From positions 1 through 64,000 of the forward strand of contig NZ_KB898656.1 of assembly GCF_000377665.1 (NCBI RefSeq): DNA of 64,000 nucleotides, written 5' to 3'. A program made the translations under genes and the position numbers. Position 1 is the first letter of the stretch, and the number at the start of each line of letters is the position of its first letter. This document shows, piece by piece, positions 2,484 to 7,751 of the stretch. The notes under the pieces were generated by a model that ran no database searches, was not told the DNA's origin, and was given only the letters and a program-made list of their open reading frames with translations. Source of the DNA: Vreelandella zhanjiangensis DSM 21076. Lineage in GTDB: Bacteria > Pseudomonadota > Gammaproteobacteria > Pseudomonadales > Halomonadaceae.

Positions 2484-2975
2484 TTAAAGCGAAAGCACCT
2501 TGTCGCCGCGTGCAATACCGGAAACCCCGGTACGCGCGACTTCAAGAATACCCACGGGCGCCATGGCCTGCAGGAAAGCATCCAGCTTGGCAGCGTCGCC
2601 GGTAATCTGAACGGTATAAAGGCTCGGCGTCACGTCGACGATCTGCGCGCGGAAGATATCCACGGTGCGTTTTACTTCATCGCGGGCAGCGCCCAGTGCC
2701 TTGACCTTTACCAGCATCAGCTCACGCTCGATGTGGTTGCCTTCAGTCAGATCGACAAGCTTCACTACATCGATCAGCTTATTAAGATGCTTGGTGATCT
2801 GTTCGATCACTCGGTCATCCCCTACCGTGGTTACCGTCAAGCGCGAAAGAGACGGGTCTTCGGTCGGCGCTACGTTAAGCGTTTCAATGTTGAAATTGCG
2901 CTGAGAAAACAGGCCGACCACACGTGACAGCGCACCCGGTTCGTTTTCCAACAGAATCGAGATGATATGTCGCAT
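2484..2975 (-). CDS. ilvH: acetolactate synthase small (regulatory) subunit
   Basis: Regulatory subunit of acetohydroxyacid synthase; it activates the catalytic subunit and confers valine feedback inhibition. The 163-residue protein has an N-terminal ACT domain (about residues 4-78, with LLENEPGALSRVVGLFSQR) and the usual C-terminal ALS domain. Length is normal for the family. Its ATG overlaps the ilvI stop by one base (TGATG), so the two subunits are translationally coupled. Confidence 0.96.
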   Translation of the reverse strand: MRHIISILLENEPGALSRVVGLFSQRNFNIETLNVAPTEDPSLSRLTVTTVGDDRVIEQITKHLNKLIDVVKLVDLTEGNHIERELMLVKVKALGAARDEVKRTVDIFRAQIVDVTPSLYTVQITGDAAKLDAFLQAMAPVGILEVARTGVSGIARGDKVLSL

Positions 2976-4699
2976 CAGGTACGCTCCGTTTTAGACAGCA
3001 GCATGTCGCGCATGGAGCCTAACGGCACCTGCATCGGATAGACGTGCTCAAAAGGGTCCACCTTCACGTCAAGAAATACCAGTTCGTGCTTGTTGGCAAA
3101 CGCACGCTCAAGCGCCGGCTCAAGCTCGTCTTGGGTAGTGACGGTAATCGCGGTAAACCCATAAGCCTCAATCAACATATGAAAGTCAGGCAGCGACTCC
3201 ATATAAGAGTGCGCATGGCGTGACTTGTAGTTCAAGTCCTGCCATTGGCGCACCATGCCTAGCGAGGCATTGTTCAAATTGAGGATTTTGACGCCCACGC
3301 CGTACTGCTTACAGGTGGAGAGTTCCTGCATCATCATCTGGAAGCTGCCTTCACCGGTAACGCAGACTACATCATCATCCGGGAAGTTTTGTTTGATACC
3401 CATCGCCGCCGGGAAGCCAAAGCCCATGGTGCCAAGCCCGCCCGAGGTGATAAGCCGGTTAGGCTTCTCAAACTTGTAATACTGAGCTGCGAACATCTGA
3501 TGCTGGCCCACATCGGTCGTCACGTAAGCCTCACCACGCGTCACGCGGCATAAGGCCTCAACCACTTCTTGAGACTTCAACATCTCGCCCGGCTTGGACG
3601 GCTCATAAAGCTTGCCGTGACGATCAGCGCGCCAGCCATCAATCTTCTCCCACCATTCCGCAAGCGCTTCGGGATGCGCAATAGGATGGCCCTGAACCAG
3701 GCTAATCATCTCACTGATAACGCTGTCGGCAGGCCCTACGATCGGCACATCGGCACGCACGGTTTTGGAGATCGAGCTGGGATCAACGTCGACATGAATA
3801 ATTTTCGCCGTGGGGCAAAACTTAGACGTGTTGTTGGTGACCCGGTCATCAAAGCGGGCGCCAATGGCAATAATCAAATCAGCGTGGTGCATGGCCATGT
3901 TGGACTCATAAGAGCCATGCATGCCTAGCCAGCCAAGGCTTTGACGATCGCTTTGCGGATACGCGCCAATGCCCATCAGCGTGGTGGTAATCGGGAAGCC
4001 CAGCCGCTTAACCAGATCCGTTAAACCTTCGCTGGCCTTGCCGGTCACCACACCACCACCGGTATAAAATACCGGGCGCTTGGCTTTGAGCATTAACTCA
4101 ACAGCCTTTTTGATCTGCCCGGTATGGCCACGTGTCACCGGGTTATACGAGCGAAGCTTGACCTTTTTCGGATAGACGTACTCGTAGCGCTCAGTGGGCG
4201 CGGTCATATCCTTGGGAATATCCACCACCACCGGACCAGGGCGCCCCGTCGAGGCAAGGTAAAACGCCTTTTTAAGCACTTCCGGGATTTCAGACGGGTG
4301 GCGAATCGAGAAGCTATGCTTCACGATCGGGCGAGTAACGCCCACGATATCAGTTTCCTGGAAGGCGTCTTCACCGATCAGATGGCTCGCTACCTGGCCA
4401 CACAACACCACCATGGGAATCGAATCCATGTACGCGGTGGCAATACCGGTAACGGCATTCGTAGCGCCGGGTCCGGAGGTAACCAGCACCACGCCGGGCT
4501 TACCCGAAGCACGGGCGTAACCATCGGCTGCGTGAGTGGCAGCCTGCTCGTGACGCACAAGAATGTGCTTCACGCTGTCTTGGCGGAACAGCGCATCATA
4601 AATATGCAGCGCCGCACCGCCGGGATAACCATAAATGTACTCAACGCCCTCATCTTTCAAGAAGCGGGCGATCATATCTGCGCCGGAAAGCAGTTCCAC
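2975..4699 (-). CDS. ilvI: acetolactate synthase large (catalytic) subunit
   Basis: Thiamine-diphosphate enzyme that condenses pyruvate with pyruvate or 2-ketobutyrate, the first common step of valine, leucine and isoleucine synthesis. The 574 residues carry the N-terminal TPP domain (GYPGGAALHIYDAL with the catalytic Glu in RHEQAATHAADGYAR), the central FAD/dehydrogenase-like domain and the C-terminal TPP motif beginning GEGSFQM and ending in LNN. It ends in SKTERT, as in E. coli IlvI. The start is GTG at 4699, preceded by a GGGGAGAA ribosome binding site; an ATG further in would remove conserved residues. A long structured leader precedes the gene. Confidence 0.95.
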   Translation of the reverse strand: MELLSGADMIARFLKDEGVEYIYGYPGGAALHIYDALFRQDSVKHILVRHEQAATHAADGYARASGKPGVVLVTSGPGATNAVTGIATAYMDSIPMVVLCGQVASHLIGEDAFQETDIVGVTRPIVKHSFSIRHPSEIPEVLKKAFYLASTGRPGPVVVDIPKDMTAPTERYEYVYPKKVKLRSYNPVTRGHTGQIKKAVELMLKAKRPVFYTGGGVVTGKASEGLTDLVKRLGFPITTTLMGIGAYPQSDRQSLGWLGMHGSYESNMAMHHADLIIAIGARFDDRVTNNTSKFCPTAKIIHVDVDPSSISKTVRADVPIVGPADSVISEMISLVQGHPIAHPEALAEWWEKIDGWRADRHGKLYEPSKPGEMLKSQEVVEALCRVTRGEAYVTTDVGQHQMFAAQYYKFEKPNRLITSGGLGTMGFGFPAAMGIKQNFPDDDVVCVTGEGSFQMMMQELSTCKQYGVGVKILNLNNASLGMVRQWQDLNYKSRHAHSYMESLPDFHMLIEAYGFTAITVTTQDELEPALERAFANKHELVFLDVKVDPFEHVYPMQVPLGSMRDMLLSKTERT

Positions 4700-4731
4700 T
4701 GTATTTCTCCCCTAGAGGTCTCGAGTGCGAT

Positions 4732-4968
4732 CCGCAGGACATCCTGCGGTGTCGAGTGCGGCGGTATGCCGCTGCCGGCCCATGCCGGCACCTGATGCCA
4801 AACCCTGGCATACGGCCCGGTTAGGGCCTGCACTCTCTGAGAGCACCGATTTATGACGATATAAATCAGCCACTCCCTTATCACGGCGGATTGCCGCGTC
4901 GGGGCGTTGGCCAGGTCGAGCGGTTGGCTCAAACCCGGAAGTCCTTCGGCGGGTAAAGGCATTTGCCT
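4732..4968 (-). promoter_or_regulatory. hairpin array in the ilvI leader
   Basis: Between ilvI and the clpB terminator lies a non-coding stretch packed with short perfect stems: CCGCAGG/CCTGCGG (4732-4749), GCGGC/GCCGC (4758-4772), GCCGGC/GCCGGC (4774-4789), TGCCA/TGGCA (4796-4810), GGCCC/GGGCC (4814-4828), GATTTAT/ATAAATC (4848-4867) and GGGT-AGGC/GCCT-ACCC (4951-4972). A 9-base direct repeat TCGAGTGCG flanks the first stem (4721-4729, 4752-4760). None is followed by a T-tract, so a classical terminator-type attenuator is not seen. A structured regulatory RNA is the simplest reading; the open frame crossing it is probably chance. Confidence 0.5.
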
Positions 4969-4991
4969 ACCCTTCGCGCGGGAAAAAGGGG

Positions 4992-5039
4992 TTACCCGTC
5001 AGGTCCGCGCCCGCAAATCAGGAACTGATAAGATTCCAT
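4992..5039 (-). CDS. possible 15-residue leader peptide upstream of ilvI
   Basis: A short frame with a full AGGAGG (5043-5048) three bases before its ATG encodes MESYQFLICGRGPDG and stops at 4992. It sits at the 5' end of the hairpin-rich ilvI leader, the position of a leader peptide. It is not rich in Leu, Ile or Val, and a TTGACA promoter-like -35 overlaps the ribosome binding site, so the start of transcription may lie inside or after it. Expression is therefore uncertain. Confidence 0.35.
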   Translation of the reverse strand: MESYQFLICGRGPDG

Positions 5040-5099
5040 TAGCCTCCTAGCATGTCAACCATCAATGCCCGATGAATGTGCAAAGGGGCGATTTGAGAC

Positions 5100-5153: not shown

Positions 5154-7751
5154 TTAGATATTGAACGCAAGCTTACCCTCGACAGCACTCACCCGAATGG
5201 TATCTCCCGGTGAGAACTTGCCGGCCAGCAGGTCTTGCGCCAGCGGGTTTTCAAGACGGCTTTGAATGGCGCGTTTAAGTGGCCGCGCGCCATAAACGGG
5301 GTCAAACCCCACCACGGCCAGCTGTGCCATGGCGTCATCGCTTACCTCAAGGCCTAAATCGTGCTCAGCCAAACGGGCTCGCAAGCGTTCCAGCTGAATA
5401 CCAGCAATTGCCTGGATTTGCTCTTGGCCCAAGGCATGGAAGACCACCACTTCGTCAATGCGGTTGATCAGCTCCGGGCGGAAGTGATTACCCACCACCT
5501 CCATGACCATGTTTTTCATGTTTTCATAGTCACGGTCTTTATCAGCACTGACGTCACCACCCATGCGCTGAATGATGTCCGAGCCCATGTTGGAGGTCAT
5601 CACGATTACGGTGTTGCGGAAATCCACCGTGCGCCCCTGGCCATCGGTTAACCGGCCATCTTCCAATACCTGAAGCAGGATATTGAACACATCCGGATGA
5701 GCCTTTTCCACCTCATCCAGCAAAAGCACCGAGTAAGGCTTACGGCGCACCGCTTCAGTCAGGTAACCGCCCTCTTCGTAACCTACATAGCCCGGAGGCG
5801 CACCGATCAAACGGGCCACGGAGTGCTTCTCCATGAACTCCGACATATCGATACGCACCATGGCCTCCTCGGTGTCGAACAGGAAATTGGCCAATGACTT
5901 ACACAGCTCGGTTTTACCGACCCCGGTGGGCCCCAAGAACAGGAACGACCCGTTAGGCCGGTTGGGATCCGACAAGCCCGCCCGAGAACGGCGCACGGCG
6001 TTAGCCACCGCTTCAACCGCTTCGTTTTGGCCGATCACCCGCTCATGCAGGGCGTCTTCCATGCGCAGTAGCTTATCGCGCTCGCCTTCCAGCATTTTGG
6101 AAACCGGAATGCCGGTCCAGCGTGAAACCACCTCGGCGATTTCCTCTTCAGTGACGTTGGAGCGCAGCAGCTGGTGGCTTGCGGTATCCGCTTCGCCTTC
6201 ACCACTTTCGGCAATTTTCTTTTCCAGTTCCGGAATCTTGCCGTACTGGATTTCCGACATACGCCCTAAATCGCCCTGCCGACGGGCCTGCTCCAGGTCA
6301 AGACGCGCCTGTTCCAAATCAGCTTTGAACTGCGCCGAGCCTTGGATGCTGGCTTTTTCAGCCTTCCAAATTTCATCCAGGTCAGCGTATTCACGCTCGA
6401 ACTCATGAATCTGGTTGTTGAGGGCTTCCAGACGCTTCTTGGTGGCTTCGTCGGTTTCCTTCTTAAGCGCCTCGCGCTCCATCTTGAGCTGGATTAAACG
6501 CCGATCCAGGCGGTCCATCGCTTCAGGCTTGGAATCAAGCTCCATACGAATCCGCGAGGCGGCCTCATCGATCAGGTCGATGGCCTTATCGGGCAACTGC
6601 CGGTCAGTGATATAGCGGGTAGACAGCTTCGCCGCGGCAATAATCGCCGAGTCAGTGATATCCACGCCGTGATGCACTTCATAGCGCTCTTTTAAGCCAC
6701 GCAGAATTGCCACGGTATCTTCTTCTGTCGGTTCATCGACCAACACTTTCTGGAAGCGACGCTCAAGAGCCGCATCTTTTTCGATATATTTGCGATACTC
6801 ATCCAGCGTAGTGGCGCCGACGCAGTGCAGCTCGCCGCGGGCAAGCGCAGGTTTGAGCATATTGCCCGCGTCCATGGCGCCTTCCGCCTTACCGGCCCCC
6901 ACCATGGTGTGCAGCTCATCGATAAACAGAATGACCCGGCCTTCTTCCTGAGAAAGCTCTTTAAGCACCGCTTTCAGGCGCTCCTCGAACTCACCGCGGA
7001 ACTTGGCGCCCGCCAATAGCGAACCCATATCCAGCGACAGCACCCGCTTGTCTTTTAAGCCTTCGGGCACTTCGCCGTTGACGATACGCTGCGCCAAACC
7101 CTCAACAATAGCGGTTTTACCCACCCCAGGTTCGCCAATCAAGACAGGGTTATTCTTGGTGCGCCGCTGAAGCACCTGGATAGTGCGGCGAATCTCTTCG
7201 TCACGACCAATCACCGGATCGAGTTTGCCGTCCAAAGCGCGCTGGGTAAGATCAAGGGTGTACTTATTGAGCGCCTCACGCTGATCTTCCGCATTGGGGT
7301 CATCGACACTGGCACCGCCGCGCAAGCTATTGATCGCCGCTTCAAGTGACTTACGGTTAAGCCCCGCGTCTTTCATCAGCTTGGTAAGCGGGCCGTTCAT
7401 TTCTAACCCAGCCAGCAGCACCAATTCACTGGCAATGAACTGATCGCCACGCTTTTGCGCTTCACGGTCGGTTAGATTGAATAGCTTGATAAAGTCTCGC
7501 GAAGGCTGCACTTCACCATCGAACTGACCCACCTTGGGCAAGTTATCCAACTGCTGCACTAGCCCGTCGCGCAGGCGGGAGCTTGAGCCCTCGGCCTTTT
7601 CGATCAGAGCTTTAATGCCCGTGTCTTTGGTATCCAGCAGAGCGAGGAGAAGATGAGAGGGATCTAGTTGATTATGACCGCGACCCACGGCCAGTGATTG
7701 CGCTTCGGCAATGGCAGCCTGAAGCTTGGCAGTAAACTTATCAAAACGCAT
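5154..7751 (-). CDS. clpB: ATP-dependent disaggregase ClpB
   Basis: Hexameric AAA+ chaperone that works with DnaK to pull proteins out of heat-induced aggregates. The 865 residues show the double Clp-N domain (1-145), NBD1 with Walker A GEPGVGKT at 206-213, the long coiled-coil M-domain typical of ClpB (about 410-530) and NBD2 with GPTGVGKT near residue 605. ATG 7751 follows a good AGGAGG. A sigma-32-type promoter lies upstream. The second Clp ATPase in this window, at 34278-36926, is the T6SS ClpV and is clearly different in its N-domain and linker. Confidence 0.97.

Follow-up and report, generated by a model that had tools for sequence, protein, structure and literature searches.

A conserved structured leader RNA ahead of ilvI in the Halomonas family and its candidate role in ribosome access

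The route to valine, leucine and isoleucine is entered through acetolactate synthase. In the 64,000-nucleotide stretch of DNA analysed here (the window), the gene for its large subunit, ilvI, lies on the minus strand with ilvH behind it (2484-2975), and the genome holds one close acetolactate synthase plus two other matches that are 26-27% identical. The region between clpB (7751..5154, minus strand), which is followed on that strand by a terminator-like hairpin at 5122-5105, and ilvI is packed with short hairpins. This array is the 5′ leader of ilvI (about 5025..4700, read from 5026 to 4700 on the minus strand), and a preliminary description had offered two ideas for it, a leader with a candidate leader peptide and an uncharacterised structured RNA. 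The locus raises the question of what kind of element stands ahead of ilvI and by what route it might act on the gene.

Promoter and reading frames of the leader

The features that bear on transcription and coding are as follows.

2975..4699, minus strand: ilvI, acetolactate synthase large subunit, with a GTG start at 4699 (ORF list)
5053..5058, minus strand: -35 element TTGACA of the leader promoter, called from conservation
5031..5036, minus strand: probable -10 element GAATCT, at a fixed distance in the alignment and a poor match to TATAAT
5043-5048, minus strand: Shine-Dalgarno-like AGGAGG of the 15-codon frame
4992..5039, minus strand: 15-codon frame MESYQFLICGRGPDG, most likely no gene, spanning the promoter and not generally conserved

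Of the window and 80 loci, all but one locus have sufficient DNA upstream, and in these sequences TTGACA is found 300-540 nt upstream of ilvI in 80 of 80, where shuffles lead one to expect 4.5; the probable -10 element follows after a spacer of 16 nt in the window and 17 nt in most aligned relatives. A scan for sigma-70 consensus promoters returned none because the -10 element is weak, and the promoter call thus rests on conservation, placing the probable transcription start near 5025. Such conservation also argues against transcription beginning downstream of the hairpin array. The -10 hexamer variants (GAATCT, GAGTCT, GAACCT and GACTCT) are conserved yet far from TATAAT, and so atypical a hexamer may point to an activator or a rate-tuned promoter. 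By hand count, the spacing from TTGACA to the 5′ CCTGA is 31 nt in one Halomonas-type and one Marinobacter leader, with one base fewer in the window.

This promoter bears directly on the candidate leader peptide. The 15-codon frame and its full AGGAGG, pointed out in the preliminary description, are indeed present (5039..4992 and 5048..5043), but both the AGGAGG and the ATG at 5039 fall between the -35 (5058-5053) and -10 (5036-5031) elements and so should not be transcribed. Apart from the window, the frame together with a Shine-Dalgarno-like sequence was found in L001 alone, which has a 99% identical ilvI protein. An ATG at the same place (ATGGAATC or ATGGAAC) is found in 36 of 80 leaders, where the frames that it begins range in length from 3 to at least 50 codons; six of these 36 have a frame of exactly 15 codons (the window, L001, L012, L029, L062 and L063), a length that thus recurs now and then. 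With its AGGAGG and ATG upstream of the probable start, and lacking general conservation, MESYQFLICGRGPDG was rejected as a leader peptide, and that part of the preliminary description was not borne out. Its accompanying remark that the peptide is not rich in branched-chain residues holds, with one I, one L and no V.

A search for any other conserved upstream reading frame (uORF) in a core set of 52 leaders gave a best start column downstream of the promoter shared by 23 of 52 and a commonest stop shared by 11 of 52, and the most shared frame had an I/L/V fraction of 0.13. No U-tailed, terminator-like hairpin was found on the minus strand within the leader, as had also been noted before; the minus-strand candidates lie only after clpB (5122-5105), inside ilvI and inside clpB. 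We thus agree with the earlier view that the locus does not fit classical ilv attenuation: a conserved frame, a peptide rich in the regulated amino acids and an intrinsic terminator were each sought and none was found, and the leader-peptide attenuator class was rejected.

A peptide that we missed, acting as in other ilv leaders, would be a reading with a precedent: the ilvB-II, ilvB-OMG and ilvB motifs have demonstrated or suggested uORF control, although some of them had originally been regarded as structured RNAs (PMC10272879). The 15-codon length, too, does recur at the place of the rejected frame. The poorly shared starts and stops, the low I/L/V fraction, the lack of a leader terminator on the minus strand and the position of the frame across the promoter make such attenuation highly improbable here. 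The uORF test carries this weight because ilvB riboswitch candidates turned out to be uORF-attenuator-like, as PMC10272879 and PMC11109978 relate.

Conserved folding and distribution of the leader

Downstream of the probable start, the leader contains the following elements, all on the minus strand.

4941..5022: 5′ domain, with CCUGAU at 5017-5022, the helix GCGCGG/CCGCGC at 5005-5010/4976-4981 and AAGGA at 4942-4946 (44-sequence alignment and tree null)
4951-4972: hairpin GGGUAGGC..GCCUUUACCC of the 5′ domain (44-sequence alignment and tree null)
4911..4938: long hairpin CCGGG..ACCUGG (two-sided changes and canonical pairs against the tree null)
4898..4905: conserved GCCCCGAC, whose CCCC can pair with the GGGG of the Shine-Dalgarno (SD) sequence, a candidate anti-SD (complement conserved in 52/52)
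4882..4898: hairpin CGCGGC..GCCGUG (canonical pairs above the null mean; covariation gives no support)
4839..4877: optional hairpin, in some relatives and missing in others (alignment)
4830..4835: GAGUGC, 5′ strand of the helix predicted to close the 3′ domain (duplex energies and pairing probabilities)
4705..4837: 3′ domain, described by model R2, with hairpins at 4814-4828, 4796-4810, 4774-4789, 4758-4772 and 4732-4749 (R2 matches held-out relatives)
4789..4796: AUCAGGUG, near-invariant, candidate switch pivot (conserved complements)
4752-4759 and 4721-4728: two copies of GCACUCGA in the 3′ domain
4707..4713: Shine-Dalgarno sequence AGGGGAG of ilvI (sequence)

The 327 nt of the window leader hold six non-overlapping perfect hairpins (at least 5 bp, loops of 3-9), compared with a mean of 2.0 in 500 dinucleotide shuffles, four of which reach six, and the total of 37 base pairs in perfect hairpins is reached by a single shuffle of the 500. 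Stems of 4 bp add at least two more (AGGC..GCCT and GCGG..CCGC), making the "at least seven" perfect short stems of the preliminary description a fair count. The segment 5060..4690 folds at -158.8 kcal/mol against a mean of -139.7 (z -3.5), beating all 100 dinucleotide shuffles.

When 17 close sequences including the window were aligned, they proved nearly identical from the TTGACA box as far as the ribosome site of ilvI; what variation there is lies in the hairpin arms and one optional hairpin. That insert (4839-4877; about 40-45 nt) is variable in sequence, present in some Halomonas and Vreelandella and cleanly absent elsewhere; the leaders L022 and L027 are much longer, with TTGACA at -474 and -524. 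In RNAalifold consensus structures, 19 of the 30 pairs in the 5′ domain and next hairpin (44 sequences) and 5 of the 24 pairs in the 3′ core (41 sequences) show compensation, which for the former means at least one two-sided change per pair. The leader thus has the conserved secondary structure with compensatory changes by which a cis-regulatory leader is recognised.

For statistical tests, one leader truncated at 208 nt (L014) was excluded from all leader work; removal of L001, L136, L143, L145 and L149 and then of near-duplicates at 96% or more took 96 leaders to 81, and excluding 29 divergent ones (Salinicola, Chromohalobacter, Phytohalomonas, Kushneria, Larsenimonas, Oceanospirillum, Marinospirillum and others) left the core set of 52. 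The null model was a tree of the 52 core leaders over which the substitutions inferred for each column were redistributed. Against it, the consensus energy of the core leaders was -200.8, the null mean being -168.8 (sd 4.7, 60 tree-simulated alignments; z -6.8). With a structure predicted on the same alignment as was used for testing it, 95.8% of cells were canonical and 168 were two-sided compensated cells, values that none of 200 simulations attained (the null maxima being 91.9% and 88).

Individual helices differ in how much they contribute. Support at this level is strong for 5005-5010/4976-4981, for the long hairpin at 4911-4938 (32 two-sided cells against a null mean of 10.3, reached in 2/200; canonical 95.5% against 83.6%, 0/200) and for 4732-4749 (77 two-sided cells against 16.0, 0/200). 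The hairpin at 4882-4898 exceeds the null in canonical pairs (94.0% against 89.0%, reached in 10/200) and has fewer two-sided cells than the null (2 against a mean of 6.2), and several helices never vary and carry no information in covariation tests. R-scape-style all-pairs covariation gave no pair at E<0.05, either with a G-test in the divergent set of 81 leaders or with a pairing score in the core set of 52. Taken as a whole the structure is secure, and individual long-range pairs are not: the proposal of a structured RNA passes the aggregate test against the tree null clearly, with no single pair at E<0.05, and the loss of conserved structure in relatives, which had been named beforehand as grounds for giving it up, did not materialise.

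Strong folding would also be expected if the leader were an mRNA stability or processing element, or the source of a stable 5′-derived small RNA, with no regulatory switching, and the hairpin at 4732-4749, whose letters vary freely while its pairs are kept, looks like a spacer or stabiliser. The near-invariant unpaired letters and the conserved distant complementarity exceed a stabiliser's needs, and we regard this explanation as quite unlikely.

The best 80 of 588 ilvI relatives belong mostly to Halomonas and allied genera, then to Oceanospirillum, Marinospirillum, Marinobacter and two further Gammaproteobacteria. We built two covariance models, R1 for the 5′ part (44 leaders) and R2 for the 3′ core (41 leaders). 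R1 has one copy in the genome of the window and one copy each in 189 of 201 genomes of the Halomonas family, which as drawn here includes Oceanospirillum and Marinospirillum, judged by identical leaders (L138/L070 and L147/L072). With ilvI directly downstream of the R1 match in all 10 loci inspected, the RNA keeps the constant position before one gene that marks a cis-regulatory leader. Leaders held out of the models were found in Kushneria (L069), Larsenimonas (L067 and L065, the latter by R2 only; R1 0.13) and Marinospirillum (L072; R1 1.4e-9, R2 0.001). Of the 12 family genomes missed by R1, 11 gave an ilvI locus, and a local search ahead of the gene recovered R1 or R2 at E<0.05 in 10 of these (L145 only at 0.04). 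The exception, L149 (genome G305), has neither match; its ilvI is divergent (64% identity), its leader looks different, and the gene is possibly a replaced one.

Beyond the family the models match at chance level at most. R1 matched 12 of 293 genomes of the order, all within the family, and 3 of 274 genomes of the class, one being a chance-level match outside it; R2 matched 13 of the 293, namely the same number in the family (12) and one chance-level match. The weak matches, in G797 (E 0.005, 274 genomes) and G136 (E 0.004, 293 genomes), are of a strength expected by chance, and among the individual leaders searched neither model matched those of Marinobacter or other families at E up to 5. 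The leader, about 320 nt long, strongly folded and non-coding, is thus conserved throughout the Halomonas family.

Its association with a single gene, in single copy and in one family only, together with near-invariant loop and linker letters, would suit a protein-binding operator (autogenous, for a global RNA-binding protein, or as a small-RNA target) better than a metabolite sensor. Set against this are the lack of any recognised Rfam family and the extent of some 320 nt in two domains, which is large for a simple operator, and on balance we think an operator rather unlikely.

Candidate Shine-Dalgarno pairings and possible control of ribosome access to ilvI

The reading that we favour, by a modest degree, is that of a cis-acting, non-coding structured leader of the ilvIH mRNA that controls initiation of ilvI translation by pairing of the SD sequence. 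The conserved promoter some 360 nt upstream would yield a leader of about 325 nt, in which the 5′ domain is followed by a 3′ domain whose closing helix, GAGUGC:GCACUC, stands right ahead of the SD. Two segments could mask the SD sequence GGGGAG, the nearby CUCC/CUCU and the conserved CCCC farther away, and the likely output would be ribosome access to ilvI. Judged from the sequence comparisons, this is the best-supported mechanism.

The closing helix is predicted to form between GAGUGC and the second of the two GCACUCGA copies (GCACUC), with the SD following at once. Among 96 leaders with both strands located (not the case in L022, L027 and L145), its duplex is worth -8 kcal/mol or better in 77, or 33 of 46 strand types, and in Larsenimonas different letters on both sides still pair (-6.0). 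It is weak or broken in the other 19, including L055, L058, L061, Kushneria and several Oceanospirillum-like leaders. In a thermodynamic model of 47 leaders (L121 and L122 skipped, and three of the remaining 50 without a landmark), it has a probability above 0.5 in 36, and the SD GGGG has a mean unpaired probability of 0.34.

We also scanned for 5-mers near the 3′ end whose perfect complement occurs upstream at a constant alignment column, an anchoring that replaced an SD/anti-SD scan at fixed distance from the start codon, which had split families by spacing. In the Halomonas core the leading 5-mers are UCAGG, with the 5′-terminal CCUGA (51/52), and GCACU, with AGUGC (49-50/52); among 4-mers, the SD GGGG has its CCCC in 52/52 and ACCU its AGGU in 52/52. 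A random 4-mer such as GGGG has a conserved complement in this set with a chance of about 0.2, so the 4-mer result proves nothing by itself, and CCCC:GGGG, being invariant in the core set, carries no covariation information there. In divergent relatives, by eye, this pairing appears compensated in L132 and L133, plausible in L145 and poor in L126 and L139: in the first three the SD GGGG has become GAGG and the candidate anti-SD reads CCUC or CCUUU in place of CCCC, a change that L126 and L139 do not follow.

The near-invariant AUCAGGUG could pair either with the 5′ CCUGAU or with the ACCU beside the SD, never with both, and with two exclusive partners it could serve as the pivot in a switch of two states, which a pathway metabolite or an RNA-binding protein might set. 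The pairing CCUGAU/AUCAGG belongs to the RNAalifold structure of the 52 leaders, where it has no two-sided changes; by eye it fails in L139, L140, L144 and L146, and of the 47 leaders modelled thermodynamically, two give it a probability above 0.5 and one gives SD:CCCC such a probability. A kissing interaction of the AACC loops with the GGGUU loop was dropped on inspection by eye, since one AACC loop varies and GGGUU does not. As for a metabolite, one published view (PMC10272879) is that a structured motif seen in just a few close relatives has a smaller chance of being a metabolite riboswitch.

Related leaders in other families and known systems

Structured ilvI leaders are also present in two further families of the order, one holding Marinobacter (f20) and the other probably the Pseudomonadaceae (f21). 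In raw counts, TTGAC[AT] stands 215-354 nt upstream of ilvI in 35 of 36 f20 loci and 233-311 nt upstream in 30 of 30 f21 genomes. Eight of the 30 f21 leaders and 10 of the 36 f20 leaders were excluded by eye as outliers or as having no promoter, and the rest are structured (z -3.7 for 22 in f21; z -4.8 for 26 in f20, a set that is not fully independent, as L078 and L096 are apparently the same record). No upstream reading frame is conserved in these sets either, the best start being shared by 16 of 22 and the commonest stop by 4 in f21, and by 19 and 6 of 26 in f20.

In the same scan for conserved complements, the top window of 104 in f21 is the SD itself, GAGGU with ACCUC (22/22), and the top window of 105 in f20 is again the SD, AGAGG with CCUCU (20/26), followed by CAGGC with the 5′-terminal GCCUG (18/26). 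At conservation cut-offs that we chose per family (90% in f21, 75% in f20), the chance that a random 5-mer has such a complement is about 0.011 in f21 and 0.012 in f20. That the SD has the most conserved upstream complement in both families suggests a shared principle.

These leaders have features of their own. Those of f21 (L105, L109, L114 and L150-L176) are about 290 nt long and share a conserved hairpin, CGCGUUACCUCGCG, in which ACCUC is complementary to the SD GAGGU, and a near copy of this hairpin, GCGTTACCTCGCGCTGGGTCGG, lies far upstream of ilvI in a further family, f35 (L110 and L115). Those of f20 (L074-L080, L096, L097, L099 and L177-L202) carry a 5′-terminal UUGCCUG, which in L074, by eye, has two possible CAGGCAA partners, a local copy and another about 230 nt downstream, making a candidate switch.

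The conserved SD complementarity of f20 and f21 weighs on another explanation, that the leader governs transcription elongation by Rho-dependent or pausing-based attenuation, with a Rho site or a pause uncovered or concealed by the fold and no need of an intrinsic terminator. The length of the leader and its conserved C-rich stretches, such as UAACC and CCAACGCCCC, would fit, and the missing minus-strand terminator counts against an intrinsic attenuator, not against Rho. These C-rich stretches are mostly paired in the consensus fold, however, and the leader appears to lack the extended, unstructured C-rich segment that is typical of rut sites; taken with the SD complementarity in two other families, this leaves elongation control improbable as the main mode.

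Returning to control of ribosome access, f20 and f21 possess structured leaders that the Halomonas models do not match, so that either one design has diverged beyond recognition or such leaders arose repeatedly. A bolder version of the first is that an unusually large, new riboswitch-like class governs ilvI, and with it the committed enzyme of the branched-chain pathway, across much of the order in rapidly diverged, family-specific versions of one design: a conserved promoter 215-540 nt upstream, a structured leader free of uORFs and an anti-SD co-evolved with the SD (CCCC/GGGG, ACCUC/GAGGU and CCUCU/AGAGG), with the 5′ terminus in Halomonas and Marinobacter also choosing between partners. We put this forward tentatively, as something that may well prove wrong.

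No Rfam family accounts for the leader. Rfam 15 (4227 families), which we take to include the T-box and ppGpp riboswitch models, gave no match at gathering score in the window, nor in 20 more ilvI loci (L072 and 19 belonging to other families of the order), which agrees with the earlier description of the RNA as uncharacterised. Below threshold the matches were weak, the best in the region being the Pseudomon-groES RNA (RF01721), set aside as chance (20.8 bits against a threshold of 50, E 0.19, opposite strand). Among the papers listed by searches of open-licence PMC, none was recognisable as a description of the Halomonas-family ilvI leader, and a word search of PMC2864571 and PMC6429828 gave no mention of ilv, acetolactate or Halomonas.

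Several described systems resemble it in part. The ilvB-II, ilvB-OMG and ilvB motifs are likewise structured RNAs upstream of acetolactate synthase, and ilvB-II, like the present leader, occurs once per genome; according to PMC10272879 these are uORF attenuators or candidates from another lineage, the ilvB motifs carrying uORFs rich in branched-chain codons and ilvB-II also a terminator, neither of which the Halomonas-family leader has. A predicted regulatory RNA also precedes ilvI in Shewanella, another member of the Gammaproteobacteria, but PMC2659441 classes it as a leader peptide with transcription attenuator, a description that sets it apart, and outside the Halomonas family R1 and R2 match only at chance level. 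The ppGpp riboswitch before ilvB in Firmicutes, as cited in PMC10272879 and PMC11109978, likewise controls acetolactate synthase through a non-coding RNA, in a different lineage, and the window has no Rfam match at gathering score. The livJ motif of Streptomyces, a riboswitch candidate with its SD in a P1 bulge, shares a proposed branched-chain amino-acid link and SD masking (PMC11109978) and belongs to another lineage and gene.

A cis-regulatory structured leader is thus a known kind of element, while this RNA is absent from Rfam 15 and from the open-licence PMC literature searched, where a non-peptide mode of control for acetolactate synthase in the Halomonas lineage is apparently undescribed. 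The described leaders of acetolactate synthase genes are largely peptide attenuators, and a 320-nt non-coding leader points to a different control. Almost all sampled members of the Halomonas family carry it, two further families have structured ilvI leaders of their own, and it would be a new entry for RNA family catalogues.
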